Origin: a virus | DNA: 21,305 bases | Direction: 5' to 3' (one strand) | IMG/VR virus record: IMGVR_UViG_3300020400_000054 | Span: 1 to 21,305 of that record | Made by a program: the position numbers and the translations under genes | Shown: positions 1-20,431 of the stretch, one piece after another | How the letters are laid out: each line of letters begins with the position of its first letter | Position numbering within the stretch: the stretch's first letter is position 1 | The notes under the pieces: generated by a model | The model's input: only the letters and a program-made list of their open reading frames with translations | Told to the model about the DNA's origin: nothing | The model's database searches: none

Positions 1-3000
1 GAGTACCAGACGCATCTACCACTTCGGTGCCTGATCCATGCTCCTTAATTCCTGTTCCAAGTGTTCCACGTTGCAGTTGTCCTAACGTGTTACCTGATTT
101 TGTAAAGTATTCTATTCTCTCTTTGTCTATGAATATGACTCCAGGTATAATTGTAGCGACAGATGAACCGTCGTAACTAATCACACTCTTTGGTTCGGGC
201 AACACAGTGCCATCCTCGACAGTGATTGTTTGTGTGCCAATCGTCATATCCAATGTAAGTTTCGTTGTCGCATTTTTTGATATTCTTTTATAGAAGGTTC
301 TGTTAAGCATGTCTTTGAAAATTCTAAATCCAGTTGCACCTACTGCCGAGTCTACAGCAAAATACATCACGTCAAGTCTGTCACTTGATGTAATAGTTCT
401 GCCAGACACTGTCACCGTGTTCCCGCTAACAATATAATCGGAACCTTGTGTTAATTGTTCTCCATTGAGCCATACATACGTATAAGTGGCATTAATGGTA
501 TCAAATCTTAATTTAAATATTCCGCTTGGTCTACCTTCCAACACCTCTCTTCTTTGTTTCATGCCTAAGGCATTGTTAAAGGTTGTGACAGATAATACGT
601 CATCTTGGCTTAGAGAATATGGTGAAGTTATCCTTGCCGGCACCAATATTATATCTGTGCCTTGATTAAAATATTGATTATCAACTAGCGTAGAAATACA
701 AATCACATCAGAGGCACTTGGAAGTGAACCCGTCACAAATTCCACATTTTGATTTGCAATATCGACTGTGTAATCTGTTGATAGTAGTTTTTCCACACCG
801 TTTACAAATACCTGTACCTGACTCGCTGTTGTTATAGTTTTTGCTGGGTCCACTGTTGAGTCGTCACCCAATCCAGACACCACACCATATGTATATGTGC
901 TTCCATCGCCGACGTAATACGTATTATCAGGTCCACGTAACATTCTTCCATTGAGCTCGATAGTGGTCAACCCTGAGAACGGACCAATTGCTCCTGCAGG
1001 AAAAGTTAATGTATACCTGTTAGTACTTCCGTCATATGTAATTTTTTCATTTCTAATACTTGCAAAACTTCTTGAACTTGTAGCAGATTTATTGAAACCT
1101 GCAACTTGTATAAAAGCACCTGCTGGTGGCACTGGTGAATTGAAAGTGATTGTCACTGTGTTTGCAGTGATTGTTTTTGTAAAGTCAGTTCTTGGCACTC
1201 CGTCTTGTGTAACATATATGTCTGATACACTAGAGTCAAGGTTGAATTCATTTCTTGAACTTGTTGTAAATGACACTGTTGAATTATCACCAATAAATGT
1301 ATCAAGCACTCTGTAATTTTCTCCAGAGATTGCAAAAACTTTTGTTGATATCACACTATTATTTGCTGGTGGTGAATTAAATGTTATTGTCTTGTTACCA
1401 ACTTGCACTGTGTAATCGGTGGTTAATTTTTTCACCTCACCATCTACTACAACAGTTACAGATCCTAGTGTGCCAGGGAAATCGCCAATTGCAAACACTG
1501 TTGTACTTCCGTTGCCTTTGTGATTTACTTCGCTAATAAAAGGAACACCAGATTCTGGCGAAGTGTACACTTTAATATCTACTGTATCAAATAGTTGTCC
1601 AGGAACAGTTTCTTCTGGTGCATAACTTGTGTCAGGAGATACAAATGCGTCTCCCTCAAGCACGATGTCACTAGGTGCCTTACCTAGTGCTGATGTGAAA
1701 AGTCCACCTTTGACAATAGAATCTAGGGTCCTATCATCCGTTGGTGTTAGTACACCGTCATCGTCAAATGGAATAAATTCCACTAATGCGTTTTCATTAG
1801 GCATGTCACTTATTGTAAATGTTACGGTAGATCCATCGCCTCGAATCACGTCAGATAATTTTTTCCTAGTGCTGTCATCCTGTGTGATGTACACTTGAAA
1901 CACATCAGTTGATTTTGGAGCAGTATCAAACGTATAAGACGCTGTGGATCCGTCTGCCCTGAAAGCCTTTATTCTACTATCACCGTAGTTGTCCCATGGG
2001 AAGTCATACCAACCTGCTTTGTCCCAACCTGCTTCCTGTGTGAATAGAAGACCAGTGACCATTGTGCCTCCGTAGTCTACACCCGTCATTACTTGATCTA
2101 ATTCATTGCCAGGCATTCCTGAACCAGGAGTGTAAAAACCTTTGGTCCTATCTGCGGCAGTAAGTCCTGTCTCGTTTCCATATACTTTGTAGACACTGTT
2201 TACGTTGTCATCAAAATCTGTTGTGGATGTAAATGGATTGGTTACCTTGTACAACTGATTTTTGTATCTTAAAAGATCGTTGTATGCGTAACTTGTTGAT
2301 ACCTCCCAATCAACCACTCTACTTGTGCTAGACACTCTGTCAAACTTGATTGTTGTGTCAAAGTCTCTAACAAGATCATTGTCTAGATTTGCATAGGCCT
2401 TTGCAGAATCAGTTGGTGTTGAACCGTCATTTTTTCCACCAGTCAGCACCACTGTTGGAGTAGCGGTGTAATTAGCGCCTACATCCGTGACAGTGATCTG
2501 TGTCACTACTCCTGATTGTATTGTAGCAGTAGCCTTTGCGGCTGACGTTGTAGGAGTAACATACATTTTATAAAGACCAGATTTACTTGACATTCCATGA
2601 TTGGATATTTGGCTATCTGGCATGTAATACACTCCACCAAATTCATTAAAGGTGTGAATGTGAGATGTACCAGAACCACCGTTTTGTGAATCCCATATGT
2701 TTGATTGTGTTAAACTTGTAAACAGAGGATAGTAGTAACCATACTTGCCTGATGATGCCCCTCTGGAACTTGTTCCCAATATTTGGAACGGACCTGTGGA
2801 TCCAGTTGTACCTCCAACAATAGATACAGTAGGTTCAACCTCATACCCTGATCCACCATCAAAGACTGTGATACTCTTGACAAATTTTTTGTGATAATCA
2901 TTCCACATCTGCCATGGGTACTCAGTCAGTTTGTCGGTATCTAGATCAACATTTAAAGACCTAATTTTGGCAGTGTCGGCGTCATAAAAAGTTGGATTAT

Positions 3001-6000
3001 CAAAGTCTGTATATATTCCATCCTGCGTTTCTATTTGATCGTAGCCAATTTTGTATTCCCTTAATTTTGTATGAAATGGTTTAACCTCATTTATGTAACT
3101 TTCTATCCAACTGTCTGTACCTGATGTATATGTTTTTCTTTGATCTAATTTTCTTACTGAATTTTTGACATTTAAAAAAGATGTCTTGAACATCCAATCA
3201 ACATAAGTCTGCTCAGATAAAACTTTTCTCAAGCCTGTAAAAAATAATGTATTGTACTCTTTGGCCAAGTCATTTATGAATAAATCATCTCGCAGTGCTG
3301 TTAAAACTTTTCGTGTTTCGATACTAGGTTCTTGGTCAAAAAAGTTATCATCAAAATTATCTGCACCCGCATATCCTGTAGCATCTTGAGAATAGTCATA
3401 TAATTTTGTGCTAAGTCTTATTGTGCCGTTTTCGGTTCCAACGTTAGTGAAGCCAGATGCTGTTTTCATAAACAATTTCCATCCACCTGTATCTGCATTT
3501 GTAACCTTAACATGTTTTCCTATGGCAAGATCTAACGAATCTAACTCATATTCAAATTTAACCTGCTTATCTATAGGCGTATTTTCACTATGAATCATTT
3601 CATGAACCTCTGGATCCGTTCCATACCAGTCTGTGTAACTCCAGTATGCTGATGTGTTATAGGTCTGCAACTTTGTTCTCGACCATTGCGTACCGTCCCA
3701 TTGATATATGGCCCAATAATTATTTGCTGTTTCGTCTGCTCTAACAAGATAATTCACTGTACCTGAAATATCGGCAGTGTTGATGTAAGTAAGTTCTGCA
3801 TATGTATCAACCGAACCTTCCCACTCGAGACTTTGTGCAGTTGGCTCAGGGTCTTTTGAATCTAAATTTGCTAAATTTATTTGTCCAACTAGTTGATTTT
3901 TCTTCAAAACTGTATTTGCATAATCTATAATTTCTTTAAGAGCAGAATATCTATCAACATACCAGCTCTGCCTTGGGCGTACACTGTTTCCGTATCTTTC
4001 ATTTACAGGAAGGTTGAGATCCGGCACAAGATCGCCGGTACTGTTTTTACCAATCAAAGAATCCCACCATCTAGCCTCTATTTGTGTACCAGGCCTGAAA
4101 TCTTTATCTCCTTCTCTGACCAATTTCCAGACGCTGTGTGCGTCGGCATCAAATGTGTTAGTTCGTAAATCGACATTTAATACAATATGATCATTTACTA
4201 AATTTGTTACATTGTATACCTGTAACTTGTTTGTGTCAGTCACAGCGTAATACTTTAGGCCAAACCTGCTAGGATTTTGGATAACATTTGCCACATAAGA
4301 TACTGAATTTTTTCGATCTACCATGCTTTTGTTAGGCAGATCACTTTTATTTTTTACCCAATAATAATAAAAAGGTACAAAGTCGTCTAACCTAGAGTCG
4401 TATCTTTCGATGACTGTATACTGAGAGTCATCACCGTAGAGTGCGATGCCAGATACATTCTCCCCAAAGCCTTCTACCCTTCGGTCCCACTCACTAGGTA
4501 ACAATCGGGATTCGACCCATTCGTACACATCTATGCTAGATCCAGGAAATATTTTACCCCAATTATTATGTTTGTATTCTTGAGTATCCTGTTCATACCA
4601 TAACCATTTTACTGTTGAAAGATCCCACCAAACTTCCCCAACATGTGTTTCTGCCCATGGTGTTTTTGTATTTGCATTTGGCCCGACATTGTAAATTGCT
4701 GGATCCCAAGCAGTTTTTATATCTATTTCTCTGTCGGCCAAACCGAGTATACGTCCTTTGACTGGATCATAAAGATCATAATAATCTCTGATTTGTTTTG
4801 ACCTATTGTCAAAGTCGAAAACTTGTCCTAACTTTTGAATATCAACTAACGATGTTTCAGTGACTAAATTTTTCCAAGCATACTGTCCGGATGTGTTGAG
4901 ATCTAAAGATAAAACTGTTCCATCATTTGTTCTTGTTGTTGCACCAACCACATTGCCATCGTCTTTAGGCGCTCCTATAAGCACGGTGTCGTCAATGACA
5001 CACACACCTTTTCCAAAATCGTCGTTTTCAGAGACAGCATCTGAAATTAATCTATCATCAATTATAAATTTAGTGTTATACATTGTGGCTGTGTATGCCC
5101 CACCTGACCCAGCGTTTGCGTCAACTACATTGGTATCTTGTAAGTCGAAAGTAGTTTCTCCCGAATCAAACTTCATTTCACGAGAACTTGCAAATCTTTC
5201 GGCTCCAATCACAATTCTATTGCCGACATCGTTTATGTCTAGACTAGTGCCGAACCTCATGTTTGTTTGTTCGTCTGGCGATTTAATCGTTTGTTGAAGT
5301 GTATATGTATTAGTGGATTCGTCTGCATTCCATTTGTAGTAATATATTGCACCACCATCAATTTGTCCTGTGCTTCCGTCGTCCATACCCGGAGCACCAA
5401 CAATGAGTGTGCCGCCATCTTTACTCATTGCAATTGAATCACCAAAGGCAGTGTTCAAAGACGAACCATCTGCTGATACTCCTGTGATAGTTTGTGCAAG
5501 TGCAAACGTATTTTGTGTGCTTCCGTCACTGCTTTGCGATGTCTTGATAAAAATCTCCACCTTACCAGCATTTCCTGGCGCCAACGAACTTACGGCCAAT
5601 ATATCACCGTTATCATTCGCCGCGATTCTGTGTCCAAACCTTTGTCCCGAACCACCTGCGGGAGATTCAATTGTCAGATCCTGAGTCCATGTGTCATATG
5701 TTGATCCATCTGCTCCTATACCCCATGTGTACATGTACACTCTCCCTCTATCGCTGTCATGTCCTGGTGCTGACACAAACAGATATTTGTCAGGAGTCGA
5801 TCGTGCAGATGATAAACCAGGTTCGGAAATCTTATGATTCCATCCAAAATTCAAATTTTCATTTGCTGTTGACCCGTCTGTTGGCGGAGTGATTGTATTT
5901 AGAATACCATATTTGAAAGTCGACTGATCCCAAATGTATACTTTGATCAATCCAGCATTGAGTTGTCTCGTGCTACCATCTTGATCTAATGTATTCGTAA

Positions 6001-9000
6001 ATGGTGCACCGGCCACCACAAAGTTTTCATCAGTGCTTATAGACAATGATTCTCCAAGTCGACTTGTGTTGTCATTATTTTCTGTCATTGTGACTGTAGA
6101 CTGAGTGCCGAAAGTAGTGCCTGCTGTGCTTGATGTCCTGAAAAGGAAATGTATCTCACCCTGTGACTTACCTGGAGCAGATACAACCACAGTTCTTCCA
6201 TCATTTCTAGCAACTACCTTATGTCCAAATTCTTGCTCATCCGTAGCATTGTCGGGAGATAAAATAATTTTACTTGTGTAAGGATCTTGTTTCTCATAAA
6301 CTCGCCACAGGCCTTCGGTATCTGCGTCAGCAAAAACTTTGTCTCCTGGCATATCTATGGCATCATTTTTGTCGTTGTAAATCTTATAGTTTAGTCTATC
6401 GTTAACGTTGTCCATTGACGATAATCTTACGGATATAAAATTATAGATGTTACCATAACTGTCAGCAGTTGAACCATCTTCTAGTGCAGGAATAAATCCT
6501 ATATTTCCGGTGTAGTCTATTATGACAGTTTTATGACTAGGTATGGCTTTTACTTGATAGACGCCATTTAGTGTTGCCTCTTCACTATTTGATATGGCAA
6601 AATAATCTGCTTGTGTCCTGATAGAGCCTGCAGATAAATTATGTGAACCTGTAAATGTTACTTCGAGTTGGGTTGAGTCATTGATCAATTCAAGATTCGC
6701 AATCTTGATTTCTGCACTTGTGATACGAAGCACGTCCCAATCTTTGTTTGATTTGTTTGCTACCCATATTAGATCATTGGTAGATATTTTATTCATGTCC
6801 AAGGACAAAATTTCTTCTATATTAAACAATGTGTGTTGGACCTGCGACAATTGAGGATAGCCGGCAGTTTTAAACACTTGTGCTATATCTCTACTGACAC
6901 CTTCTTTAGCGTAATCTAATTTACTAAAGGTAGATGCCGCTGTGTACTCAACAGGTTTGTAGTAAAGATCTTCTTTGGCTACACCTATTGATCTAGAATA
7001 ATCTGTTGTTTCATTTGAAGAATCCAACAGTTCAATACTTTGAGGATCTGCGACTATCTTATCATCTCTGAGGGTTATTTGTATATTTTCTATAGAATCA
7101 GTGTTTCCAAACTTACCTGTTCTTATCATCCATTCTGGATATAGGTCTAGTGTAATATCTTCGCCTTCGTATTTCGCCTTAAGCAGTTTGTCTATTGCGT
7201 TCTTTGTACCTTTTTCTCTGATGTAACCTTGATAAAATTTGTATTGAGACACATCATTCACAAATAAATTTTCGAGATAATCTCTTGATTGATATCCGGT
7301 TAGCCTTTGAGCCAGTTGCTGTTGAGATTCATCAAAATTATTGGTTTCCAAATCATAAAAATCATTGAATTGCGAAATTTTATATTCGAAGTTCGGAATT
7401 AGTTGTGGCGCCGGCTTTTCGGACTTCAACTTCCAATTGAAATTTTCGAATTTTGATCCAGAATTATGATTTGCTTTTGCCACATAAAATTTTCCTTGGT
7501 ACTCAACACTGTCACCTATTTTATAATCAGTATTGGCTAACCAATAGGTTACCTGAGCGGCATCAAAAATGAAACCCGGAGCATAATAGTCACCGTTCCA
7601 ATTGCCTGTTTTCCAACCAACTAATTTTAATCTTTGTTGTCGAAAACCTGTTGCGGCGTCATATATGATATCAGAAAAGACAGTTTTGTTATCAAATAAA
7701 ATAATGTGTTCTTTTTGAACTGTGTTTAGAGCAATATTATATAGGCCAATCTGATCAGACTTGATTCCTAATTCAAATGTTTTTCCTATCCGTTTTGTGG
7801 AAACTTCTGCTAAATCAATTTTTCTACCACCTGAGTCTAGCAAAGAATAATCGCCTGCTACATTTCTAAGTCTTCCCACTATGCTGTTATTGGTGTCTAA
7901 CTCGAATCCGTCAGCGGCAGGAGATACCGTTACTGCCGATCCTGGTGCCCATTCTTGTGTTGTCCAGAACAAAAATTCTCGAACTGCATTAGCCCAATTC
8001 AAAGTTTCTTTGATTTCTTTTGAAAACTTGTTAAATTTGAATCCTTGACTTTCGAGCCAGTGTCCATAACCAAATAAAAAATCTGCCACATCTTGTATTG
8101 TAGCAAACACATGTCCATAAGGTATGGTTTGTGTTATTTCTTGATAATTTCTATATTCCTTTACAGCCAAAGATCCTTCAACTTGCACTGCTTTTGCTGT
8201 GCTTGTTTTGATAGGATAGTTAAAACTGAAATGTGGCTTTAATGTGTTATATCCAAGTATTTTGTATCCACCAACAAATGTAACACTTGATCCATCTGTT
8301 TTAGTTGTGGTGTCTGTGTTTTTTTCAATTAGCACACCAGAATAATTGAAACTATCCACAGGATTGCTGGTCCTAAATAAAATTTTATAATTCTCATCTG
8401 GAATAAATTTTGATCCTGATGTCGAACCAGGCGATACACTGTCTGTCAATATTTTAATATTATCTTTATCGGTGAATCCTCCAAGTTTATATGCCAGTTG
8501 AACTTTAAGGTTTTTCATCTTGTCGTAAAAGAACGTTTTGGCATCTAAGTTTCTCGACACCAGATAGTTCACTGTGTATGGCTGATACCCTGCTGTGTGA
8601 TATCTAGTAATAACTCCTGTTGCCAAATTTGTTTCTGTTTCAAGATGATATCTTCCCGAACTTAAAGTGGGTCTCACACCTGTATCAGATGATATTTGGT
8701 TCCCTGATATGTTTTTTGACAGTCTAGATAGATCAAAATAGTTTGAGAAAAATTTAGCCGGTTTTGTAAGAGCTAAAAGTTTCATTACAGAGAAAGGATA
8801 CGAACTCGATCTTCTCCAAGCAGTCTCGGCCGGAGCCTGGTCACCAAACTTCCAAGTCATTTGCCTACCAGGAATGTCAAGATCCGCAATTAAACCTGCC
8901 GCAATGGGATCCAATAAATTTCCAGATGCGTCAACCGGAATATATGATTGTATGTCTGGCTTACCGTATCTACCCGGCTCTACTTCAATTGCATTCCATA

Positions 9001-12000
9001 AAACACTGTTTCCCGAAGTGTATGGTGCTGAGCCGTATGTGTCCTCCCAATCGTCTGGTTTCTCAGAATGGCCAAACATCTCCCATGGTCTTACATGTGG
9101 AGCGTCAGTGTCATAAAAATACTTGTATATGCCTCTCCAGTATCCCGGGAGATCTGACTGCGTTAACCTATCCTTGGATTTTGAATAGTTGTAAGTGAAG
9201 GGAGATCCCTCCGAAAATACTGTATTGTTGATATACTGCACATTATTCCTGCCGGCCCAGTTATAAAAGTCTGCACCTAGAATACTATCTACTTCAGCAA
9301 GGCTGTACTCTGTTGGATAGAAAACAGTTGGAATGACGTCATTGACATCTAAGAGATCAGCATCGTAAGAAGTTTTTATATTATTGTAAATTCTTTTTTC
9401 GAGCTCTAAAATCAAATCGTCACGTTCATCGCCGTAGGCTTTTATTATAGATCCATCATGCTTTCTAATTACATTTGTATCTGTTAGGTAAGTTGTATCA
9501 GTAAAAGATTCTGGTTTAAACTTTGGATACATACCAAGTTTTGTTGGCGACGGAGGCATGAAACTTCCGGTAGTATCTGCATAATCTTTAATTACAATTT
9601 TATCTCCTTCTGATAAAGAGATTGATACATTAATACTATCATCAACAGTGCTAAAAGTGTAATCATGGCCAACTAAGAGTTGTGTGCCATTTAGATAAAC
9701 GTAGACAGCACGGTTACTAAGTTTAGTAATGTCATGCTGTGAATCCAATGCATATTCAGTTTGCGAAGCACCCAAGACAGTATAGTTTCTGATTGAAACA
9801 TTTTCCCCATAACCTAGCATGTCTTCGTAGTAAAAAGGAAATGTGCTGTTCCTACCTGGAGTAATAAGTTCGATAATCTCATCCACTCTGTCTGACGCCA
9901 CTCCTTCATAGGCAGTGCCGGTTGCATGAGTCAAAAATGCATTGTACCATTTCTCATATTCCTGTGAAGCATAATCTAAAGCGACGCTGAAATTGGCATC
10001 CTGATCAATCAAGTTGAATATTGCTGGAGTTAGTGGACCTTCATGTTGGTGTATTGTGCCGCCTTTTAGTCTTGCTTCAGGCTTGTCCCGTAAATTTGAG
10101 ACACCAGGTATAGCACCTGTGACATCTTGATTTTTGTCGAGTATATCTCTGACATGGTTTAGAATTTGTCCAAATGTAAAAGTGCCTAATTGATCGTTCA
10201 AAGCGTTAGTTGATAGGTTTTCAGGCACTTCGTATATGCCCTTGCCATCAACTTTCTCAGCACTGCTATACCCTGCAATTCTTATTTGGTCATTCGCTTC
10301 TAATTTTTTGTTAAACTTAATGTATCTATTTTTTGTTCCATTGACAAGAGTATAATCTGTCGTTAACGTTTTTCTTTGGCCGTTGACCACTACCGAAACT
10401 TCCAAGTCAGTCAAATCTGCTGAATCTTTGTAAAAATCAATTGGAAATAATTGTGTCTCTGTGGCATCGACTATTATTGTTCTTATTACACGTTGTTTGC
10501 TTTCCGAAAGTCTTTTTATCCACGAACTTCTTGAATTATGCGTTGCAAGTCCTGTGGTATAATGAAGATGGCCTTCTGCTAATTTTTTTGTTATTGTCGT
10601 TGTGCCACTCTTATATGTAAAAGATCCATTAGTGTGATCTGAATCGAATACTATGTCGCCGACATTATTGATGGTGTTGTATTTGACTTTTATCCCAAGC
10701 ACTGTGTCGGTAGTTGCTGTATCCGATGTAGCAAAGGAGAATACATTTGCTCCTATGAAAGATGAATTGGGATAAGTGGACGAATCACTGAAGGACACGT
10801 GATCGTTATCAAACATATCAAATAAAGGTGGTTGATTTACTTTAGTTTTTTCTTGTGCTTCAATAAATTTTTCAGCAGTGCTATCATATCTAAAAGTTTT
10901 CCCTTGATTTGTTGTTCCGAATTCAATGTATATTGAATCATTGTTGGACGGAGTGCCGTCTGATGCTTTTGTAAGGGCAATTACTTGTGTTGAATCTCCT
11001 GCTGTGACAAATGAAACGTCATAGATCACATCTTTGACTAAAGGATCGGTATCAGCCGAGAAAACAACTCTCATGCCGTTTGCCAAGGCCAGCCCGTCAA
11101 CAATATAACCAGTCTGTTTTACAACTTGGCTAAATGCATCAGTGGTTACTGTGTCGTACAATGTTACAGATTTTTTTGCTATAGTGCCGTGATTGTATAA
11201 AGCAAGTCCTGAATCAAATTCTATAATTGGTCTTTTTGCTCTATCTGTCTCATCTAAGACTGGAGTATAGCCATTTACTTTTGCAGTCTCTTCTATCACT
11301 GACCTATGAAACCACCTGTTGTATCTGGACCAGGCATTTCTATCTTGGGAATCTCTTTTGATAGTCATGTAGTCTTTGTTTTCAGGTAGATAGAATGCTT
11401 TGGCGTAAGGTCTTGAATCATAACCAACAGAGTCAAAAAGTATAGTAGTTTCAGTTGCGTAACTGCCTGGGGTAATTAATTCTTCTACGTCAGTCAAGGT
11501 GATTGCCTCGCCAACTCCTTCTACATAATATTCTTTGTTTTGATATGCTGTAGAAACCAAGGCACTTGGAAATTTAATCTTCATACCATTTGATAGATCG
11601 AGTGTCCTTAAACTGTAATTTTTTACCCCTATAATATCATTGTCTACATTGATTGCAGTCGTTGATGTTGCATCTTTAATCTGAAGTATGCCATACATGT
11701 TGGCATGATTGCCGCATTGATAATACAAAGTATTTGGAGCATCCGTCGGCACTGTGAATGTCACTGTTCCGTAAACTGCACCAGCGTTTGATACGCCATT
11801 GGTGTAAAATAAGTTTGTAGACCCATCCTTATAAGGTTCGGTCATTATGTAAAACGGATGGCCTTTTGCGTTCACGTTAAATTTGTAGGTGTTACCTCTG
11901 TATAAAGTTAAGATAGGATTGTTTTCATTTTCTCTATGCCTAAAATTGTATGCCCCTTTGGCCAAGTTTGATACCGAATATTCGATCACTGCCGATGGTC

Positions 12001-12520
12001 CTACAGAATCAATTTCAATTGCCAGTGGACCATTTGGCATCCAATAATATTCTCTGTAATTCACCAATTTGTCATAGTCTATTGCAGGATTCCAACTGTA
12101 GACTGTTTCTTTATTCAATCTATCATGATTGTTTGTTTTCCCGCCCAAATATTTTATTTGATTGATATAATCATCATACGTGCCTGTAAACTTAACTTGG
12201 TCCTCAGGATTAACAGATGTTGTATCTTTATCTGTGTAAGTTATTGCAGGCTCTAATTGGTAGGCAAATCTATCGCTGTCTGTGGCAGTGATATATCTAT
12301 CGTTTACATTTCTTGTGTATGCATCTTGTCTGCCTATGAATCCATCTAATCGATCCAGTGACCCTTTTTGGACCAAAGGATCCATTGTGCTAGATAAAAA
12401 TCTTTGATTAGAATCAGTCCTGTAAAACGCCGGTAAATGTTGTATAGTTCTTCTATATTCATTTTTGCCTTGCTGTACAACCTCGCTGTTGCTTCCAGAA
12501 TTTATAGGGTTATCCGCCAT
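1..12520 (-). CDS. Giant virion structural protein, downstream of gp6 (C-terminus beyond window)
   Basis: This frame starts at an ATG at 12520 and stays open to base 1, giving at least 4173 residues (over 450 kDa) with the stop outside the window. The start overlaps the gp6 stop as TAATG and has an AGGA ribosome site 5 nt upstream. Visible parts in order: an N-terminal region (residues 1-185) with an LPAFYRT motif and a YREYYWMPNG segment; a cupredoxin-like domain (190-283); NG...DY beta-modules at 713 and 944; a helical, Trp-rich segment near 1480-1530 (LFGYGHWLESQGF...FWTTQEW); a CBM5/12-like module near 1660; a seven-blade FG-GAP propeller (2085-2535); a second CBM-like module near 3405; and GDGST/NG...DY modules (3510-4060). 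The last residues read in the window contain LQRGTLGTGI. From memory, large structural proteins of T4-like marine phages share the N-terminal and 1480-1530 motifs. Position after gp6 suggests a baseplate-periphery or fibre role, possibly replacing T4 gp7/gp10; that is inference. No signal peptide or membrane segment was seen. Confidence 0.88.
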   Translation of the reverse strand, partial: MADNPINSGSNSEVVQQGKNEYRRTIQHLPAFYRTDSNQRFLSSTMDPLVQKGSLDRLDGFIGRQDAYTRNVNDRYITATDSDRFAYQLEPAITYTDKDTTSVNPEDQVKFTGTYDDYINQIKYLGGKTNNHDRLNKETVYSWNPAIDYDKLVNYREYYWMPNGPLAIEIDSVGPSAVIEYSVSNLAKGAYNFRHRENENNPILTLYRGNTYKFNVNAKGHPFYIMTEPYKDGSTNLFYTNGVSNAGAVYGTVTFTVPTDAPNTLYYQCGNHANMYGILQIKDATSTTAINVDNDIIGVKNYSLRTLDLSNGMKIKFPSALVSTAYQNKEYYVEGVGEAITLTDVEELITPGSYATETTILFDSVGYDSRPYAKAFYLPENKDYMTIKRDSQDRNAWSRYNRWFHRSVIEETAKVNGYTPVLDETDRAKRPIIEFDSGLALYNHGTIAKKSVTLYDTVTTDAFSQVVKQTGYIVDGLALANGMRVVFSADTDPLVKDVIYDVSFVTAGDSTQVIALTKASDGTPSNNDSIYIEFGTTNQGKTFRYDSTAEKFIEAQEKTKVNQPPLFDMFDNDHVSFSDSSTYPNSSFIGANVFSFATSDTATTDTVLGIKVKYNTINNVGDIVFDSDHTNGSFTYKSGTTTITKKLAEGHLHYTTGLATHNSRSSWIKRLSESKQRVIRTIIVDATETQLFPIDFYKDSADLTDLEVSVVVNGQRKTLTTDYTLVNGTKNRYIKFNKKLEANDQIRIAGYSSAEKVDGKGIYEVPENLSTNALNDQLGTFTFGQILNHVRDILDKNQDVTGAIPGVSNLRDKPEARLKGGTIHQHEGPLTPAIFNLIDQDANFSVALDYASQEYEKWYNAFLTHATGTAYEGVASDRVDEIIELITPGRNSTFPFYYEDMLGYGENVSIRNYTVLGASQTEYALDSQHDITKLSNRAVYVYLNGTQLLVGHDYTFSTVDDSINVSISLSEGDKIVIKDYADTTGSFMPPSPTKLGMYPKFKPESFTDTTYLTDTNVIRKHDGSIIKAYGDERDDLILELEKRIYNNIKTSYDADLLDVNDVIPTVFYPTEYSLAEVDSILGADFYNWAGRNNVQYINNTVFSEGSPFTYNYSKSKDRLTQSDLPGYWRGIYKYFYDTDAPHVRPWEMFGHSEKPDDWEDTYGSAPYTSGNSVLWNAIEVEPGRYGKPDIQSYIPVDASGNLLDPIAAGLIADLDIPGRQMTWKFGDQAPAETAWRRSSSYPFSVMKLLALTKPAKFFSNYFDLSRLSKNISGNQISSDTGVRPTLSSGRYHLETETNLATGVITRYHTAGYQPYTVNYLVSRNLDAKTFFYDKMKNLKVQLAYKLGGFTDKDNIKILTDSVSPGSTSGSKFIPDENYKILFRTSNPVDSFNYSGVLIEKNTDTTTKTDGSSVTFVGGYKILGYNTLKPHFSFNYPIKTSTAKAVQVEGSLAVKEYRNYQEITQTIPYGHVFATIQDVADFLFGYGHWLESQGFKFNKFSKEIKETLNWANAVREFLFWTTQEWAPGSAVTVSPAADGFELDTNNSIVGRLRNVAGDYSLLDSGGRKIDLAEVSTKRIGKTFELGIKSDQIGLYNIALNTVQKEHIILFDNKTVFSDIIYDAATGFRQQRLKLVGWKTGNWNGDYYAPGFIFDAAQVTYWLANTDYKIGDSVEYQGKFYVAKANHNSGSKFENFNWKLKSEKPAPQLIPNFEYKISQFNDFYDLETNNFDESQQQLAQRLTGYQSRDYLENLFVNDVSQYKFYQGYIREKGTKNAIDKLLKAKYEGEDITLDLYPEWMIRTGKFGNTDSIENIQITLRDDKIVADPQSIELLDSSNETTDYSRSIGVAKEDLYYKPVEYTAASTFSKLDYAKEGVSRDIAQVFKTAGYPQLSQVQHTLFNIEEILSLDMNKISTNDLIWVANKSNKDWDVLRITSAEIKIANLELINDSTQLEVTFTGSHNLSAGSIRTQADYFAISNSEEATLNGVYQVKAIPSHKTVIIDYTGNIGFIPALEDGSTADSYGNIYNFISVRLSSMDNVNDRLNYKIYNDKNDAIDMPGDKVFADADTEGLWRVYEKQDPYTSKIILSPDNATDEQEFGHKVVARNDGRTVVVSAPGKSQGEIHFLFRTSSTAGTTFGTQSTVTMTENNDNTSRLGESLSISTDENFVVAGAPFTNTLDQDGSTRQLNAGLIKVYIWDQSTFKYGILNTITPPTDGSTANENLNFGWNHKISEPGLSSARSTPDKYLFVSAPGHDSDRGRVYMYTWGIGADGSTYDTWTQDLTIESPAGGSGQRFGHRIAANDNGDILAVSSLAPGNAGKVEIFIKTSQSSDGSTQNTFALAQTITGVSADGSSLNTAFGDSIAMSKDGGTLIVGAPGMDDGSTGQIDGGAIYYYKWNADESTNTYTLQQTIKSPDEQTNMRFGTSLDINDVGNRIVIGAERFASSREMKFDSGETTFDLQDTNVVDANAGSGGAYTATMYNTKFIIDDRLISDAVSENDDFGKGVCVIDDTVLIGAPKDDGNVVGATTRTNDGTVLSLDLNTSGQYAWKNLVTETSLVDIQKLGQVFDFDNRSKQIRDYYDLYDPVKGRILGLADREIDIKTAWDPAIYNVGPNANTKTPWAETHVGEVWWDLSTVKWLWYEQDTQEYKHNNWGKIFPGSSIDVYEWVESRLLPSEWDRRVEGFGENVSGIALYGDDSQYTVIERYDSRLDDFVPFYYYWVKNKSDLPNKSMVDRKNSVSYVANVIQNPSRFGLKYYAVTDTNKLQVYNVTNLVNDHIVLNVDLRTNTFDADAHSVWKLVREGDKDFRPGTQIEARWWDSLIGKNSTGDLVPDLNLPVNERYGNSVRPRQSWYVDRYSALKEIIDYANTVLKKNQLVGQINLANLDSKDPEPTAQSLEWEGSVDTYAELTYINTADISGTVNYLVRADETANNYWAIYQWDGTQWSRTKLQTYNTSAYWSYTDWYGTDPEVHEMIHSENTPIDKQVKFEYELDSLDLAIGKHVKVTNADTGGWKLFMKTASGFTNVGTENGTIRLSTKLYDYSQDATGYAGADNFDDNFFDQEPSIETRKVLTALRDDLFINDLAKEYNTLFFTGLRKVLSEQTYVDWMFKTSFLNVKNSVRKLDQRKTYTSGTDSWIESYINEVKPFHTKLREYKIGYDQIETQDGIYTDFDNPTFYDADTAKIRSLNVDLDTDKLTEYPWQMWNDYHKKFVKSITVFDGGSGYEVEPTVSIVGGTTGSTGPFQILGTSSRGASSGKYGYYYPLFTSLTQSNIWDSQNGGSGTSHIHTFNEFGGVYYMPDSQISNHGMSSKSGLYKMYVTPTTSAAKATATIQSGVVTQITVTDVGANYTATPTVVLTGGKNDGSTPTDSAKAYANLDNDLVRDFDTTIKFDRVSSTSRVVDWEVSTSYAYNDLLRYKNQLYKVTNPFTSTTDFDDNVNSVYKVYGNETGLTAADRTKGFYTPGSGMPGNELDQVMTGVDYGGTMVTGLLFTQEAGWDKAGWYDFPWDNYGDSRIKAFRADGSTASYTFDTAPKSTDVFQVYITQDDSTRKKLSDVIRGDGSTVTFTISDMPNENALVEFIPFDDDGVLTPTDDRTLDSIVKGGLFTSALGKAPSDIVLEGDAFVSPDTSYAPEETVPGQLFDTVDIKVYTSPESGVPFISEVNHKGNGSTTVFAIGDFPGTLGSVTVVVDGEVKKLTTDYTVQVGNKTITFNSPPANNSVISTKVFAISGENYRVLDTFIGDNSTVSFTTSSRNEFNLDSSVSDIYVTQDGVPRTDFTKTITANTVTITFNSPVPPAGAFIQVAGFNKSATSSRSFASIRNEKITYDGSTNRYTLTFPAGAIGPFSGLTTIELNGRMLRGPDNTYYVGDGSTYTYGVVSGLGDDSTVDPAKTITTASQVQVFVNGVEKLLSTDYTVDIANQNVEFVTGSLPSASDVICISTLVDNQYFNQGTDIILVPARITSPYSLSQDDVLSVTTFNNALGMKQRREVLEGRPSGIFKLRFDTINATYTYVWLNGEQLTQGSDYIVSGNTVTVSGRTITSSDRLDVMYFAVDSAVGATGFRIFKDMLNRTFYKRISKNATTKLTLDMTIGTQTITVEDGTVLPEPKSVISYDGSSVATIIPGVIFIDKERIEYFTKSGNTLGQLQRGTLGTGIKEHGSGTEVVDASGT
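341..1993 (-). repeat. GDGST / NG...DY beta-module array of the giant protein
   Basis: Degenerate protein repeats at about residues 3510-4060. Units begin with G-D/N-G-S-T and alternating strand residues (GDGSTVTFTISD at about 3561, GNGSTTVFAIGD at about 3669). A strand with (N/D)G and often DY follows: VVVDGEVKKLTTDYTV (D3693), YVTQDGVPRTDFT (D3773), IELNGRMLRG (N3857), VFVNGVEKLLSTDYTV (N3907) and VWLNGEQLTQGSDYIV (N4019). A closing strand of the type TITFNSPP ends several units. From general knowledge, modules of this form are common in phage tail fibres. The codons differ between copies, so this is old divergence and not a recent DNA duplication. Confidence 0.72.
2186..2314 (-). other. 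Second possible CBM5/12-like module in the giant protein
   Basis: Residues about 3403-3445 read VDWEVSTSYAYNDLLRYKNQ, then LYKV and a region rich in Thr and Ser ending in F. The aromatic spacing W3405...Y...D-x-L-x-Y-x-x-x-x-Y resembles the module near residue 1660, with the Gly of GD replaced by Asn. Sugar binding is inferred from pattern only. Confidence 0.33.
4916..6268 (-). repeat. Seven-blade FG-GAP beta-propeller of the giant protein
   Basis: Protein-level repeats at about residues 2085-2535. Each unit starts with an (F/L)G turn, then a strand and a GAP-like strand: FGHKVVARNDGRTVVVSAPG (F2098), LGESLSISTDENFVVAGAP (L2155), FGWNHKIS...LFVSAPG (F2225), FGHRIAANDNGDILAVSS (F2295), FGDSIAMSKDGGTLIVGAPG (F2359), FGTSLDINDVGNRIVIGA (F2423) and FGKGVCVIDDTVLIGAP (F2502). 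The spacings are 57, 70, 70, 64, 64 and 79 residues. Seven units is the count needed for a closed propeller like the integrin alpha head. Several units are followed by a strand such as KVYIW, RVYMYTW or AIYYYKW, as in bacterial FG-GAP repeats. Propellers of this type commonly mediate binding to proteins or glycans; the ligand here is unknown. Confidence 0.85.
7421..7558 (-). other. Possible CBM5/12-like module in the giant protein
   Basis: Residues about 1655-1700 read YWLANTDYKIGDSVEYQGKF, then YVAKANHNSGSKF and a closing NW. This is the Y-x-x-G-D-x-V-x-Y-x-G-K-x-Y pattern with flanking aromatic residues seen in chitin-binding-type (CBM5/12) modules. The segment is short and this is a motif call only, so it may be a structural linker. 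Confidence 0.4.
11672..11953 (-). other. Cupredoxin-like domain of the giant protein (predicted type-1 copper site)
   Basis: Residues about 190-283 of the giant protein. A strand ending in NTYKFNVNAKGHPFYI supplies H221. The C-terminal loop reads YYQCGNHANMYG, giving C269, H272 and M275. The spacing C-x2-H-x2-M is that of the blue-copper protein amicyanin (Cys92, His95, Met98), and an upstream His on a beta-strand is the fourth ligand in that family. All four ligands are present, so the site looks functional rather than decayed. Copper binding is a prediction. The domain could instead serve only as a stable beta-sandwich in the virion. Confidence 0.72.
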
Positions 12521-12522
12521 TA
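12520..12522 (-). other. TAATG stop/start overlap, gp6 to giant gene
   Basis: The gp6 stop TAA and the giant-gene ATG share one base, with AGGA 5 nt before the ATG inside the gp6 coding tail. This arrangement usually gives translational coupling. The same TAATG form joins the 707-aa gene to gp5 at 18005 and the gp48/54-like gene to gp53 at 20431. Confidence 0.85.
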
Positions 12523-15500
12523 GTATCCTGACCCACTACTGCCGGTGCTCGATGAAGAGCCGGAACTTGTTGTAGTAGAGCCTGATACTGCTGATCCTGA
12601 TGTAGTGTTAGAAGTGGCAGTTGATGTTGATGTAACAACAGAGCCGGATGCCGTGAGTTGGTTGGCTCCTAATGCTGATATAATTGATACATCATCAACG
12701 GTGGCCCCACTGATGAAAATTTCGTCTGCCGCTGAATTTATTTGAAACAAAGACCCAAAACCCTGTCCCGATTGATTTGGCACAATCACCACCGTCAAAA
12801 GATCAGGTGCTAATTGATTATGCACATATGCGGCTAATTCTGTGAAATAAAAACTATCTCCAAAGTCCCAATTATCTAGGGCGAAATACTCATTTATAGC
12901 GGCAATCACTCTTGTTTTTATTACAGCATCTGAAATATTTGTTCTAGAGTTTTTGACAACCTTAAATGTCGCCTGTAATGTTTCTTCTGCATTTGATCCA
13001 AATAAAATTTTATATTTTACAGGATGATACACTATTTGATCTGATAATGACTTGAGTGGATTCAAAACACCTGCATATGCAATACGCAATTGATCTGGAG
13101 TTGAAGTTTTAGGTGCTGTACCGCCGTCTTGCAAGAATATTCTGAAAAGATTGTCATATGTTCTTTCTAAGAGATACACATCAACCAAATTAGAAACACT
13201 AGGATCTATTCTAGTTTCTTGCCCTGCATGATGCTTGTATTGAAAACTTAAATTGCTTCTGCCTTTTCTTGCTATGTAATCGGTGCTTGTTGATAGTGTG
13301 TTTGAGGACGAACTATATTTCTTAATTACATCTTCAGAAGCATCATAAAAATAAAATAATTGACCGTCTGTGTAAGTGTTTGTGTTTAGATTTATATCTG
13401 ACTCGTTCTCAGATACAATAAAGTTTGTCGCGGCGTATGGTCTGAATCTTTCTATATTATCATAAGAAATATATTTTTCAAAGAACACAAATTTTGTTGA
13501 CTCCGATAAAGTTGGTTCTATTATTATATCAAAAATATCAGGATTATCGACTACACCATCATCGTCGTCGTCGAAGAAGCCTACTTTCACTTTCCTGTTG
13601 TCTTGGAATCCATCTGCTTCGGTCACTGTGTCTGTGACTTGCCATGTAATTGGATATCCGATACTGTTACCTGTTGAAACAATACTATTTGTCTTAAGCA
13701 GTTTAACTGAATCTTTAACACTTTTTCCGGTTTTGTAGTCATAAATTTTTTCCTGTACATCGTAATGGAACTTATTCTGTGACTCCGATTCGAAGATGTA
13801 TTCTAATTTTCTGTACTGTACAGTGTAAGTGTTTCCATCATTAGTGAATTTGAACCACCAACTTGCATCTGCGTTTGCACCTGTGGCAGATCCTGTATTG
13901 GCTAAATCAAACACTGTGCTTGTGCTTAAATTTGTCGAAGTAATTACCTTCCATGTTTCCGAATCAACGTCGTATCTTAGACCAAATTCTTCATAAGATT
14001 CAATTCTATCGATTAAATCATTCTTCAAAGTTGTCGATAGTGATGTTGTGAAGTTTGGTATTATTGCATTAACTACAGAGCCTTGTGGTATAATATTGTT
14101 TAAAGTCACAGGGCCGTCGCCTGATTCTAGATTGCCGACTCCACCATTTGCACCATCACCCACAACAGTACCGATCTTAGCCCATGCTCTATCCTCAGCA
14201 TTCTCGGTTGCCGACGTCACTAAGGTTCCATTTAAAAATTTTCTAGTATCAGGTGATGTAAATTTTATCAATGCCCCAACTTTCGCAAATTTCATATTTG
14301 ATGTAGCAAAGTCTCCAATTACAAGAGGACCTCCACTAGTAAAAAAACCTGTGTTGGTATTTGTAGAAGTTGCAGTTGAACTCCATGTTGCTGACAATGT
14401 GCTTACATCTTTCGTACCGTATTTTTGATAATAAAATTGCCTCGCATATGCTTCTTTTAGTTTATCTTCTACAGAATTAGTAATCGTTGATTGTATGTCA
14501 CTTCTATTGTTAAAATTGAATGTGAATTGTTGCAAGGATTCTTCTCTATATAAAATTCCGTCTTCTGCAAACACACTTACATTTGAATAAGCACCTGTTG
14601 GGTCAAGTATTTCTTTAGCCCGAGATATTCCCGACGCAGACCTGTTGACAGATCTTACCTTTACTATTTCTTGTGAAGCACTAAGAGGTACCACTTGATA
14701 GTCCTCCGCTGTGATCATTCTATTCTGTGAATAGTAAACTTGTGATGCCTTTTCACGGATTGTGTCATTGGATTCTGTAGCCGCGGCATTGTAAACACTT
14801 GCTTTAAGGCTCATGGTCATGTTGAGCGACTGCTGTGCTCCATTGGCATCAATGTAGGGGACCACCAACTGCACGTTTGACATATCGCCTGGCTGGATAG
14901 CATACTTGGCATTGTCACTTGTTCTATAGTATGTTCTAAAACTCCCCAAAGGTAGGTTAGCAAAATTACCGTCTCCGAATACAAGATCGATTTCGTCATT
15001 GTTTTTTGTTACAATATTGTATAAGTTTCTTTCACTTTTGGATAATGAATTGTAAATTGCATTATTTCCTGAAAGCGAAGGTACCTTACTCCATCTTTCG
15101 GAAATTTGGCCAAACTGATCTAATTTATAAAGCCATACATCTGTTTCGTTTATGTTTTCAACATCTAATGGATAAACAAAATTTGTTACTGCGGTTTCAA
15201 CCGAAAAATCCGTTTGTTGTAATGAACCTTGTTTGAATTGAAAGAAAAAGCCTGTATTGTTCGAACTGTCGCCTGCACCGTCGGACCTATAAGTGTATGT
15301 CAGGCCTGTGCCTGGTATTGGATCGGATTCATAGATGCTATCCGAGTCATTGATTGTGCTCGGAACAATTTCAAAAGTTCTCGATATACCACCAATACCT
15401 TTTGAAAATGTAAAAATCGGAATATCCAGTTGATTTGAACTTAGTGTGTATACTTCTGTTGATATACCACCAATAGTTCCTGATTCTCGTGGATTGCCAA

Positions 15501-16008
15501 AGAGTTGTCCGGACTGATTTGCCGCATTTAAAATTGCGGTGAACTGTTCTCTGTAATTACTGTTGGCACCATCATTCCAAACTATATTGGTATTTGCCAG
15601 GTTAGTTCCAGAGCTATCTGTAACATCTTGAGTGGTTGATATAGAATCTAATTTCAATAATCCTGTCGCAGGTTTGTTTCTAGTTGCATTGTAATTAATC
15701 AGCCTTGCTAAACGTAGAACCGAATTTCTTCTTTCTGCTGTTTCAAGAAAATTTTCCCTAGCATTCAAGTCTACTCGAAATGACAAGGCCTGCGAAATGT
15801 ATGCAATGAGATCTATGAGAGCCACGTACTCTGAACTTTCTACAAAGTCATTGAAATCATCTGGATAGTTCTCCTTAAGGTACGCAACCATTGTTCTTCT
15901 TAGTGTTTCAAAATCATAAGATTTGAAATCTGCCTGCTGGAAAGACTGGTAGATCTTTCTCCAATCTTCTGCAACTAATAATCTGTTCTGTCTATCTGTA
16001 GTGGCCAT
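12520..16008 (-). CDS. 6: Baseplate wedge subunit gp6
   Basis: A 1162-residue protein, longer than T4 gp6 (660 residues). In T4, gp6 forms the iris ring that links the wedges and changes shape on sheath contraction. The N-terminus (RLLVAEDWRKIYQSF, DFVESSEYVALIDLIAYISQ, ARENFLETAERRNSVLRLAR) and the C-terminal block (QIVYHPVKYKILFG, NWDFGDSFYFTELAAYVHNQ, LLTVVIVPNQ, GFGSLFQI) match the gp6 family of marine T4-like phages as I know it; the middle is the baseplate-J-like region plus extra sequence. Residues 813-821 are DDDDDGVVD, an exact D-x-D-x-D-G-x-x-D calcium-loop pattern. Residues 1119-1162 are almost wholly Ser, Thr and Gly. The start at 16008 follows a 42-bp gap from gp25 that has a late promoter but no clear Shine-Dalgarno site. 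The stop overlaps the ATG of the giant gene. Confidence 0.95.
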   Translation of the reverse strand: MATTDRQNRLLVAEDWRKIYQSFQQADFKSYDFETLRRTMVAYLKENYPDDFNDFVESSEYVALIDLIAYISQALSFRVDLNARENFLETAERRNSVLRLARLINYNATRNKPATGLLKLDSISTTQDVTDSSGTNLANTNIVWNDGANSNYREQFTAILNAANQSGQLFGNPRESGTIGGISTEVYTLSSNQLDIPIFTFSKGIGGISRTFEIVPSTINDSDSIYESDPIPGTGLTYTYRSDGAGDSSNNTGFFFQFKQGSLQQTDFSVETAVTNFVYPLDVENINETDVWLYKLDQFGQISERWSKVPSLSGNNAIYNSLSKSERNLYNIVTKNNDEIDLVFGDGNFANLPLGSFRTYYRTSDNAKYAIQPGDMSNVQLVVPYIDANGAQQSLNMTMSLKASVYNAAATESNDTIREKASQVYYSQNRMITAEDYQVVPLSASQEIVKVRSVNRSASGISRAKEILDPTGAYSNVSVFAEDGILYREESLQQFTFNFNNRSDIQSTITNSVEDKLKEAYARQFYYQKYGTKDVSTLSATWSSTATSTNTNTGFFTSGGPLVIGDFATSNMKFAKVGALIKFTSPDTRKFLNGTLVTSATENAEDRAWAKIGTVVGDGANGGVGNLESGDGPVTLNNIIPQGSVVNAIIPNFTTSLSTTLKNDLIDRIESYEEFGLRYDVDSETWKVITSTNLSTSTVFDLANTGSATGANADASWWFKFTNDGNTYTVQYRKLEYIFESESQNKFHYDVQEKIYDYKTGKSVKDSVKLLKTNSIVSTGNSIGYPITWQVTDTVTEADGFQDNRKVKVGFFDDDDDGVVDNPDIFDIIIEPTLSESTKFVFFEKYISYDNIERFRPYAATNFIVSENESDINLNTNTYTDGQLFYFYDASEDVIKKYSSSSNTLSTSTDYIARKGRSNLSFQYKHHAGQETRIDPSVSNLVDVYLLERTYDNLFRIFLQDGGTAPKTSTPDQLRIAYAGVLNPLKSLSDQIVYHPVKYKILFGSNAEETLQATFKVVKNSRTNISDAVIKTRVIAAINEYFALDNWDFGDSFYFTELAAYVHNQLAPDLLTVVIVPNQSGQGFGSLFQINSAADEIFISGATVDDVSIISALGANQLTASGSVVTSTSTATSNTTSGSAVSGSTTTSSGSSSSTGSSGSGY
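12523..12654 (-). repeat. Ser/Thr/Gly low-complexity C-terminal tail of gp6
   Basis: The last 44 residues of gp6 (1119-1162) are built almost only from Ser, Thr, Gly, Ala and Val, ending in SSSSTGSSGSGY. It follows the conserved gp6 end (VSIISALGANQL), so it is an added flexible tail and not part of the known fold. The codons are mixed, so it is not a simple DNA microsatellite. Confidence 0.85.
13546..13572 (-). other. Calcium-loop motif DxDxDGxxD in gp6
   Basis: Residues 813-821 of gp6 read DDDDDGVVD and fit the D-x-D-x-D-G-x-x-D loop of EF-hand-like and thrombospondin-type calcium sites. NPDIFDIIIEP follows. Five of the nine positions are consecutive Asp. Metal binding is inferred from the motif; no partner helix is obvious. 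Confidence 0.55.
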
Positions 16009-16050: not shown

Positions 16051-16476
16051 TTAAGATAGGCGTAACAACGAATTTTCATCAAAGTTGAAACGTAACTTTT
16101 CGGTGATATTCAAGGGCACATATGTAATAGTGGCCTGTATGGATATTCCCCTATCGGCCTCAGAAACCAATATTTCTTCGGTTGCAATACGAGGATCTGC
16201 ATTTAAATTTGCAGTCACATCCTCAATAATGGCATCTTTCAAATCTTTCGTAAATGGCTCAAAAATGGCATCATATATGATGGTGCCAAATTCGGGGTTC
16301 TCCACTCTTTCACCTTTACGCACACTAAGTCTATTAATTAGATCTTGCTTTGCCACTTCAAAGTCATATAATTTAAAATTTCTTTTGTCAGCTCGCGAGC
16401 TAAAACCTTTGAAGGTAATACTCCCATTTGACTGGCTCCCTGAGCCTCCTGATGATCCTGAACTTCCGTATGCCAT
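16051..16476 (-). CDS. 25: Baseplate wedge subunit gp25 (GPW/gp25 family)
   Basis: A 141-residue wedge protein, close to T4 gp25 (132 residues). In contractile tails this family links the wedge core to the start of the sheath. The family signature is clear: NRLSVRKGERVENPEFGT, with R53, G55, E56, R57, P61 and G64, followed by IYDAIFEPF and a C-terminal beta region ending KLRFNFDENSLLRLS. The first 18 residues are almost wholly Gly and Ser and are extra compared with the conserved core, which begins near KNFKLYDFE-like residues 32-40 (here RNFKLYDFE). The start lies 14 bp after the gp5 stop with no clear Shine-Dalgarno site, so reinitiation after gp5 is likely. The start could in principle be further inside, but the nearest in-frame ATG choices would cut into the core. 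Confidence 0.95.
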   Translation of the reverse strand: MAYGSSGSSGGSGSQSNGSITFKGFSSRADKRNFKLYDFEVAKQDLINRLSVRKGERVENPEFGTIIYDAIFEPFTKDLKDAIIEDVTANLNADPRIATEEILVSEADRGISIQATITYVPLNITEKLRFNFDENSLLRLS

Positions 16477-16490
16477 ATACTTTATTTACT

Positions 16491-18005
16491 CTATGCTATA
16501 TCGTCCTTGTCTCTGCCTTTTGATGCTGTTCTATCATAAGGCTCGTGTGTGACAAATGCTCCGGTCACCCTATTGGTTTTGCTATCCATTACCGTGGTTT
16601 TTGCTTTTGTCTTTTCGTAGTTTGGTTTGCCATTCTTAATTGGCTCTTGTGCTATGATATCTTGCACTTTAATTGGTTTCAAGTCCACCTTATTATGGCT
16701 AGGTTCCAACCATCCTGGTCCCATGACAGATCGTGGTCCAACTGAATTAAGGTGAACCTCTTTGCTTGTTGCTAGATCTATTCTACCCTCAGCACTGTGA
16801 AACTGTATGCCCTTAGTGTGTGATGTTATGCCGTCTCTTGCAAAATGCCTCACAGAACCTTTTTGGGAGGCACCCAATATCCCTGACTCACCCATTACGT
16901 AAACAAATTTTTCAGCGTTCAGCACAACATTTTCTTCGGCAGTGAAATTAATTTTTTCTTTGGCGTGGAAATTTATATTTTTATCAGAGTGTAAATTGAA
17001 ATCTCCCTCGGCCCTAATTGCAATTCCTCTATCTGAATAAATGTTGATCTTTCCATTTTTCTCCATTTCTATAAATGCCTTGCCTGAGCCATTGGCTAGA
17101 TACACCACACCTTCTGTGTCATGCATTAATAATTGATGGCCAGATGCTGTTCTCAATCTTGTAAGTTGATTATTACCGTCTACATCACCATCATCCATAA
17201 CAAGTGTGTGACCAATCTTCCTGGTCACATAATCCTGTGCCCGTACGTCCTTTGTTCCAACAAACTGCTTTGTAGATTTGGTATCTTTCGGGCCAGGAGT
17301 ACTGATCCCAAACACACTACTCGGAGTCTCCCTACGTGCCGAACTGGTTGTGGTTCCCCTCACTTCATCTGGCGAAAGTCCTTGCTGTGCAAGTATGTCT
17401 GCCAATGGGTGTATTGGCTTGTTGAATGTATCGTATTTCAAAGCCGGGTTCGAACCAGGATTTTGTCTATTGACTTCTCCGGCTGGCACATTTTTTGTTC
17501 CATAAGTTTTCTGTTTATCTGTACCACTACTAAACTGTCCTGCAGGGCCTCCTGAATCTTTATCCCATGTTTTCTCACTAGCGGCTATGCCTGGAACCAT
17601 ATGATTGGTTACAGGATCCTGTAGACAACCTATCCAGAACGCCTGCTCCAACTTGCCTTCTGCAAATATTACTAGTACCCTAGTGCCTATGTCGGGTGGC
17701 ACTGCCCAAAAACCATAACTGTGTTGGCTGTGTTCATATTTTGTTGATCCAGGTACATTATATTTTACATCCTTGGCTCCGTAAAATGGGGAAAGATATT
17801 CGCAAGTAAATAAATTTCCGCTGATTGGATCTGCCGTTTTACTAAGTGCAGGAATATTGACCTGCAGTCTTCCCATTCGTAAAGGATCCACATTGTTTTT
17901 TACAATTGCTATGAATGGGCCCGGCTCGCCGCCTGCCCAGTCTTTAATTGTTCCCGGTGCTTTGCTAGTCGATGCGTGTCCCTTAAAGTAATCCTTTGTC
18001 GACAT
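16491..18005 (-). CDS. 5: Baseplate central hub/spike protein gp5 (OB-fold and beta-helix, no lysozyme)
   Basis: A 504-residue hub and spike protein that should sit trimeric under the tail tube and pierce the outer membrane. Residues about 28-130 are the gp5/VgrG-type OB-fold: FIAIVKNNVDPLRMGRLQV, FWAVPPDIGTRVLVIFAEGK and FWIGCLQDP. Residues about 262-425 are short alternating repeats (INIYSDRGIAIRAEGDFNLH, INFHAKEKINFTAEENVVLN) expected to form the triple-stranded beta-helix. The stretch 140-260 between them is a polar, Pro/Thr/Lys-rich linker; T4 gp5 has its lysozyme domain there and nothing like it is present. A C-terminal extension ends in THEPYDRT and a charged tail. The ATG overlaps the stop of the 707-aa gene as TAATG with AGGA 7 nt upstream, which fixes the start. 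Confidence 0.92.
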   Translation of the reverse strand: MSTKDYFKGHASTSKAPGTIKDWAGGEPGPFIAIVKNNVDPLRMGRLQVNIPALSKTADPISGNLFTCEYLSPFYGAKDVKYNVPGSTKYEHSQHSYGFWAVPPDIGTRVLVIFAEGKLEQAFWIGCLQDPVTNHMVPGIAASEKTWDKDSGGPAGQFSSGTDKQKTYGTKNVPAGEVNRQNPGSNPALKYDTFNKPIHPLADILAQQGLSPDEVRGTTTSSARRETPSSVFGISTPGPKDTKSTKQFVGTKDVRAQDYVTRKIGHTLVMDDGDVDGNNQLTRLRTASGHQLLMHDTEGVVYLANGSGKAFIEMEKNGKINIYSDRGIAIRAEGDFNLHSDKNINFHAKEKINFTAEENVVLNAEKFVYVMGESGILGASQKGSVRHFARDGITSHTKGIQFHSAEGRIDLATSKEVHLNSVGPRSVMGPGWLEPSHNKVDLKPIKVQDIIAQEPIKNGKPNYEKTKAKTTVMDSKTNRVTGAFVTHEPYDRTASKGRDKDDIA

Positions 18006-20131: not shown

Positions 20132-20431
20132 TTATAGTCCTAGGTCTTTGAGCAAGTTCTCTTTCTTAGGTAACTGAACTGTCACTCCTGGTTTGAAATC
20201 GTAGATCGGATCCTCAATTTGGTCTGGATTACGCTGTGCAAACACCCACCACAGCCTAGGTGTGCCATATAAGTCATAGGACAAAAGATCTGGTCGATAT
20301 GCATATGTCCTTTCAATTGTATAACTTTGATCATCTGCCTCCGCAGTGATTGTCCTTGGATTAAGGATCGCGAGATAGTCCGAAATTTCTTCGGTCTCAA
20401 AATACGGAGATGTATTAGAATAATTTGCCAT
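20132..20431 (-). CDS. 53: Baseplate wedge subunit gp53
   Basis: A 99-residue protein with the core of the gp53 family: YAYRPDLLSYDLYGTPRLWW followed by VFAQRNPDQIEDPIYDF and GVTVQLP (residues 43-88). In T4, gp53 (196 residues) joins neighbouring wedges around the hub through a LysM-like fold; this version keeps that core and lacks most of the T4 C-terminal part, as is usual in marine relatives. The ATG overlaps the upstream stop (TTTAATGG) and has AGGA 8 nt before it. The 99-residue length is supported at both ends by these tight junctions. Confidence 0.92.
   Translation of the reverse strand: MANYSNTSPYFETEEISDYLAILNPRTITAEADDQSYTIERTYAYRPDLLSYDLYGTPRLWWVFAQRNPDQIEDPIYDFKPGVTVQLPKKENLLKDLGL

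Follow-up and report, generated by a model that had tools for sequence, protein, structure and literature searches.

Could a baseplate protein of a contractile-tailed phage hold a copper ion in the manner of a small blue copper protein, and what would such a site do on a virion? The question arises from the virus record of 21,305 bases analysed here (hereafter the window, meaning the whole stretch; G+C 38.7%), in which the initial annotation, made from the sequence alone, had proposed a cupredoxin-like domain with a complete set of blue-copper ligands in a phage structural protein.

Baseplate gene neighbourhood

All long genes of the window lie on the minus strand, and they encode a contractile-tail baseplate. 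A gp53-like baseplate wedge subunit is located at 20132–20431 (PHROG 7145, E = 1.7e-29), a gp5-like baseplate hub protein at 16491–18005 (Pfam Phage_base_V; PHROG 13211) and a gp25-like baseplate wedge protein at 16051–16476 (Pfam GPW_gp25, E = 2.1e-7; PHROG 43). A gp6-like baseplate wedge protein of 1162 aa (12520–16008; PHROG 10646, E = 5.7e-291, and also PHROG 219) has its best named relatives in the jumbo phages Atu_ph07, Phosso and PA5oct. The gene order gp5, gp25, gp6 then leads to a giant ORF (2–12520), which is open at the start of the window and encodes at least 4173 aa; the open frames of intact homologues of this protein span ca. 4160–4360 aa. The giant protein belongs to PHROG 10938 (virion structural protein, E = 6.8e-158). 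Its position downstream of the gp6, gp25 and gp5 homologues, together with an N-terminal match to the giant proteins of jumbo phages, led to its assignment as a gp7-like baseplate wedge protein. The placement of the proposed domain in a phage structural protein was therefore borne out by both gene order and PHROG membership.

The match of PHROG 677, a gp9-like connector of cyanophages, was also considered as a possible identity of the giant protein. The match did not extend over the whole profile, being confined to profile positions 287–411 of 412, which correspond to the domain itself, and this assignment was rejected. Elsewhere, the giant protein contains a carbohydrate-binding module (CBM_5_12; residues 1660–1689, window positions 7454–7543, minus strand, E = 4.6e-9) and FG-GAP repeat sequence (residues 2491–2523, window positions 4952–5050, minus strand, E = 7.9e-12), features to be expected in a surface-contacting protein. 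The PA5oct homologue, which does not itself contain the domain, carries an ESI-MS/MS note in its annotation.

Fold of the domain and its four-residue site

An AlphaFold2 model of the domain, with 61 relatives in the input, was all-beta and of high confidence (pLDDT 90, pTM 0.83). In a Foldseek search against the PDB, the best 50 of 249 matches (E ≤ 0.001) were all cupredoxins or cupredoxin-fold copper enzymes, and the matches listed included AcoP, pseudoazurin, rusticyanin, plastocyanin, nitrite reductase and small laccase. Pairwise comparison using VIA-align gave Z scores of 10.7 for Hyphomicrobium nitrite reductase (rmsd 4.1 over 101 residues) and 10.2 for rusticyanin (rmsd 2.4 over 98 residues), where unrelated models typically score 7 to 8 according to the tool's own note. 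The cupredoxin fold proposed initially was thus upheld and another fold was excluded. A search of the PDB with a family profile, which is independent of structure, likewise returned mostly cupredoxins (best E = 0.0027, with individually weak matches); the family profile was needed for this result, since a single-sequence phmmer search of the PDB with the domain returned chance matches only. As modelled, the cupredoxin domain of residues 178–286 is real and conserved, and its location is unusual. A second AlphaFold2 model, covering residues 1–345, was too poor (pLDDT 45) to show how the domain sits among its neighbouring segments or whether it is exposed.

The domain comprises ca. 110 residues, from residue 178 to approximately 286 (11663–11989, minus strand), and is supported by AlphaFold2, Foldseek, VIA-align and the PDB profile search. 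The span given in the initial annotation (11672–11953) does correspond to residues 190–283, and the domain itself is slightly longer. The numbering of the four putative ligands and their sequence contexts were exact. His221, the first ligand, occurs in GHPFYI (11858–11860, minus strand), and YYQCGNHANM holds the thiolate ligand Cys269 (11714–11716, minus strand), the second histidine ligand His272 (11705–11707, minus strand) and the axial ligand Met275 (11696–11698, minus strand). In the profile alignments, these four columns fall on the His, Cys, His and Met ligands of plastocyanin, which supports the completeness of the set, and Cys269, His272 and Met275 form a C-x2-H-x2-M loop with the spacing of amicyanin, as had been noted. 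This pattern occurs once in the window proteins (ca. 7,070 aa), against 0.0009 occurrences expected from composition. The giant protein contains only three cysteines in 4173 aa, one of which is Cys269.

Two BFVD entries annotated as "beta-sandwich proteins" (A0A481Z6J5 and A0A481YVH3, from Pithovirus LCPAC302 and Marseillevirus LCMAC201) have a predicted fold similar to that of the domain.

Relationship to small blue copper proteins

The small blue copper proteins (amicyanin, plastocyanin, pseudoazurin, rusticyanin and AcoP) share with the domain a beta-sandwich and the order His...Cys-x2-His-x2-Met. They are, however, small exported electron carriers, whereas the domain described here lies inside a giant phage baseplate protein, and the sequence similarity is too low for the models of those families. 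No match of the window domain to Plastocyanin/azurin (PF00127) was found in Pfam at E ≤ 1, the only hit of the domain alone being a sub-threshold one to the At5g54830-like domain, and no NCBIfam model matched it, including that of amicyanin (TIGR02657). Closest to it are further phage structural proteins, together with large marine bacterial proteins that bear repeats.

These results bear on the suggestion that the domain was borrowed from a host electron carrier. Recent capture of a plastocyanin or an amicyanin, followed by its fusion to a tail protein, would agree with the amicyanin-type ligand spacing and with the weak matches of some relatives to amicyanin, halocyanin and plastocyanin models (15 of 61 in NCBIfam, best E = 1.2e-4; 4 of 22 to Pfam Copper-bind). 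However, none of these models recognises the window domain itself, whose relatives are structural proteins of phages and, in bacteria, large proteins bearing SWM, Ig-like or collagen repeats. The suggestion was not supported, and we regard such a capture as highly improbable.

The domain as a module of phage tail proteins

The placement of the domain in the protein can be seen by comparison with the PHROG 10938 giants of Atu_ph07, Phosso and PA5oct, whose hosts are rhizobia and Pseudomonas. These gp7-like proteins occupy the same place after gp6 and have the same flanks, with both residues 1–177 of the window protein (11990–12520, minus strand) and those after approximately residue 290 aligning to them. 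They nevertheless lack the cupredoxin domain, there and genome-wide. In its position, PA5oct has a short link, and Phosso and Atu_ph07 have an unrelated stretch; across the four jumbo genomes searched, the domain was not found anywhere. Since the jumbo-phage homologues are without it, the domain appears to have been acquired as a module by a marine lineage, rather than lost in the jumbo phages.

Among named phages, the domain was found in 341 records, almost all of Synechococcus and Prochlorococcus phages; Syn9, S-ShM2 and P-SSM2 are cultured examples. The carriers are gp9-like connectors (at their C-terminal end), tail fibres and podovirus proteins. The cyanophage "baseplate wedge tail fiber protein connector" of PHROG 677 has this domain at its C-terminus (E = 1.1e-23), likewise with all four ligands; the window protein has no counterpart to the remainder of that connector. 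In 11 of 11 cyanophage records, each chosen because it held a match, one to four copies were present, and scans started from two further loci (L085 and L086) added few families. At three loci (L097, L101 and L104), the ORF downstream of the gp9-like gene, itself a baseplate protein, has a second, diverged copy that retains C-x2-H-x2-M. Immunoglobulin-like decoration domains provide a comparable case of a beta-sandwich module that recurs at many places in unrelated virion proteins, although they belong to another fold family and have no metal site. In line with the ESI-MS/MS note of the PA5oct homologue, carriers are present in virions: a domain-bearing fibre of phage S-SCSM1 has a virion-protein annotation, and the virion proteins of this phage have been identified by mass spectrometry (PMC9602691).

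Conservation of the ligands and their loss in one fibre clade

When the domain was used as bait, all four ligands were retained in 81 of 81 homologues, the window included, a count biased by the presence of the ligand motifs in the search patterns. Using residues 1–177 as bait instead, the domain and all four ligands were retained in 78 of 78 loci covering the region; many of these loci are on the same contigs as the domain-fetched set, and the independence lies in the bait. Three of them had variant contexts (GHPFWV, QCSNH) with the ligands kept. The ligand codons vary synonymously (TGT/TGC and CAT/CAC), and therefore the constraint acts on the protein. Over all families except one ligand-less clade (181 unique copies), Cys269, His272 and Met275 were invariant and His221 was kept in 179. 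The proposal that the ligands are under selection is thus supported by the independent bait and the synonymous codon variation.

The initial annotation had named free loss of the ligands among homologues as evidence against a metal site. Such free loss was excluded, save for one group of tail fibres that lost three of the four together. In these RN05-S-type fibres (L088, L217–L254 and L257), Phe, Ala/Ser and Thr/Val/Ile replace His, Cys and His, respectively. In the tree, a single clade (support 1.0) unites them, next to relatives in which the set is complete, and the only copy detected in RN05-S is of the ligand-less kind. The clade retains Met and the other conserved motifs of the domain, and its fold is probably unchanged. 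Because the clade lost His, Cys and His yet kept the rest, the ligands are probably unnecessary for folding. The absence of all three strong ligands from one clade in which the rest of the domain survives argues, at the level of sequence, that the ligands are kept elsewhere for one shared purpose, most simply a metal. Since this clade keeps Met too, Met is no evidence for copper in particular.

The same pattern bears on whether the site might hold another metal (zinc, or Cu(I) only) or none, the ligands then being kept for local packing or as a reactive cysteine. The retention of Met275 where the other ligands are lost favours this explanation, as does the chemistry of the cytoplasm, the site of virion assembly, where copper is scarce and zinc is more available. 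Joint loss of His, Cys and His in one clade, however, fits a shared metal better than packing, and His, Cys, His and Met in a cupredoxin frame are the copper set. We consider another metal, or none, unlikely. The recurrence of the domain in hundreds of marine phage tail proteins, with the site nearly always intact, suggests that the particles may carry copper.

Possible role on the virion

We take the domain to be a genuine metal-binding module of type-1-like character on the virion, with copper occupancy predicted. The specific reading that we favour, at roughly even probability, is that of a cupredoxin module in the gp7-like wedge protein of a marine jumbo-type myovirus, with a type-1-like copper site and an exposed position for contact. 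From the fold and the ligand correspondence, His221, Cys269, His272 and Met275 would hold one copper ion per chain. The domain would be exposed on the baseplate, where it may contact the host surface or a neighbouring fibre, and the metal would rigidify the ligand loops. By analogy with T4 stoichiometry, this would amount to ca. 6 sites per virion here and ca. 18 in cyanophages with the domain on gp9. A point against copper is that the known small blue copper proteins acquire it only after export, whereas the giant protein is assembled in the cytoplasm. Given that virion assembly takes place in this compartment, which offers little free copper, the metal would probably be loaded after lysis, from seawater or host debris. 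Most likely, the domain would serve as a metal-stabilised surface-contact module, although a purely structural need for the metal is doubtful because one clade manages without it.

Alternatively, the site could be redox-active, such that a change in oxidation state at the host surface or by light-driven reductants would help to trigger baseplate rearrangement or signal contact with a living cell. The complete type-1-like ligand set, the location on the baseplate, where contraction is triggered, and the enrichment in phages of phototrophs are all consistent with such a role. Nonetheless, no redox partner is visible, one fibre clade works without the site, and the domain occurs at many tail positions, fibres and podovirus proteins among them, which suits a general module more than a single trigger. 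We therefore consider a redox function unlikely.

A further possibility is that the loaded domain acts as copper bait, being recognised by a metal-uptake or metal-binding protein of the host surface, as a copper analogue of the "Ferrojan horse". Copper is scarce in the open ocean and the carriers are tail and fibre proteins, both of which would suit a bait. On the other hand, we know of no outer-membrane copper receptor in the likely hosts, and a type-1 site, which holds copper tightly and is half-buried, would make poor bait, so that this role appears quite improbable despite the iron precedent. Published work covers both metal-binding motifs of marine phage tails and the "Ferrojan horse" or "Trojan horse" idea for iron (PMC11705849). 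The iron-binding HxH motifs of phage tail fibres (T4 gp37) likewise place a transition metal on a tail protein (PMC11705849), although the fold, the ligands and the expected metal are all different, and the metal here is predicted.

More broadly, type-1 copper centres loaded outside the cell could serve on the baseplates and fibres of marine phages for redox- or copper-dependent host recognition, making virions participants in ocean copper chemistry; we regard this as a lesser possibility. If copper is present, the domain would represent a metal centre conserved in the tails of a great many marine cyanophages, laboratory isolates among them, and one so far recorded under labels like "baseplate wedge tail fiber connector". 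No description of a cupredoxin domain in phage baseplate or tail-fibre proteins, or of a plastocyanin-like one in phage tail fibres or cyanophages, was found in the open-access papers searched, and the sole open-access paper found to join cyanophage and cupredoxin concerns Borgs. Priority for describing the domain is not claimed. The copper content of virions and the need for copper in adsorption are questions open to existing cultures, for which the ligand-less fibre clade provides a natural control.

Carriers in bacterial genomes

The domain also occurs in bacterial genome assemblies, and several of the contigs concerned look viral. A chromosomal-looking gene on a 320-kb Hyphomicrobiales contig (L206: 3104–4396) encodes a protein of 430 aa with no Pfam match, which has two copies of the domain, each with all four ligands; relatives of this gene occur at L204 and L205. 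Other bacterial carriers have SWM, Ig-like or collagen repeats. In a Prochlorococcus single-cell genome (L216: 3–3173), a protein with SWM repeats and Ig-like domains contains one copy. In Lentisphaerae (L210: 3671–5125), a copy whose first His is replaced by Asn is joined, within one protein, to an FGE-sulfatase domain.
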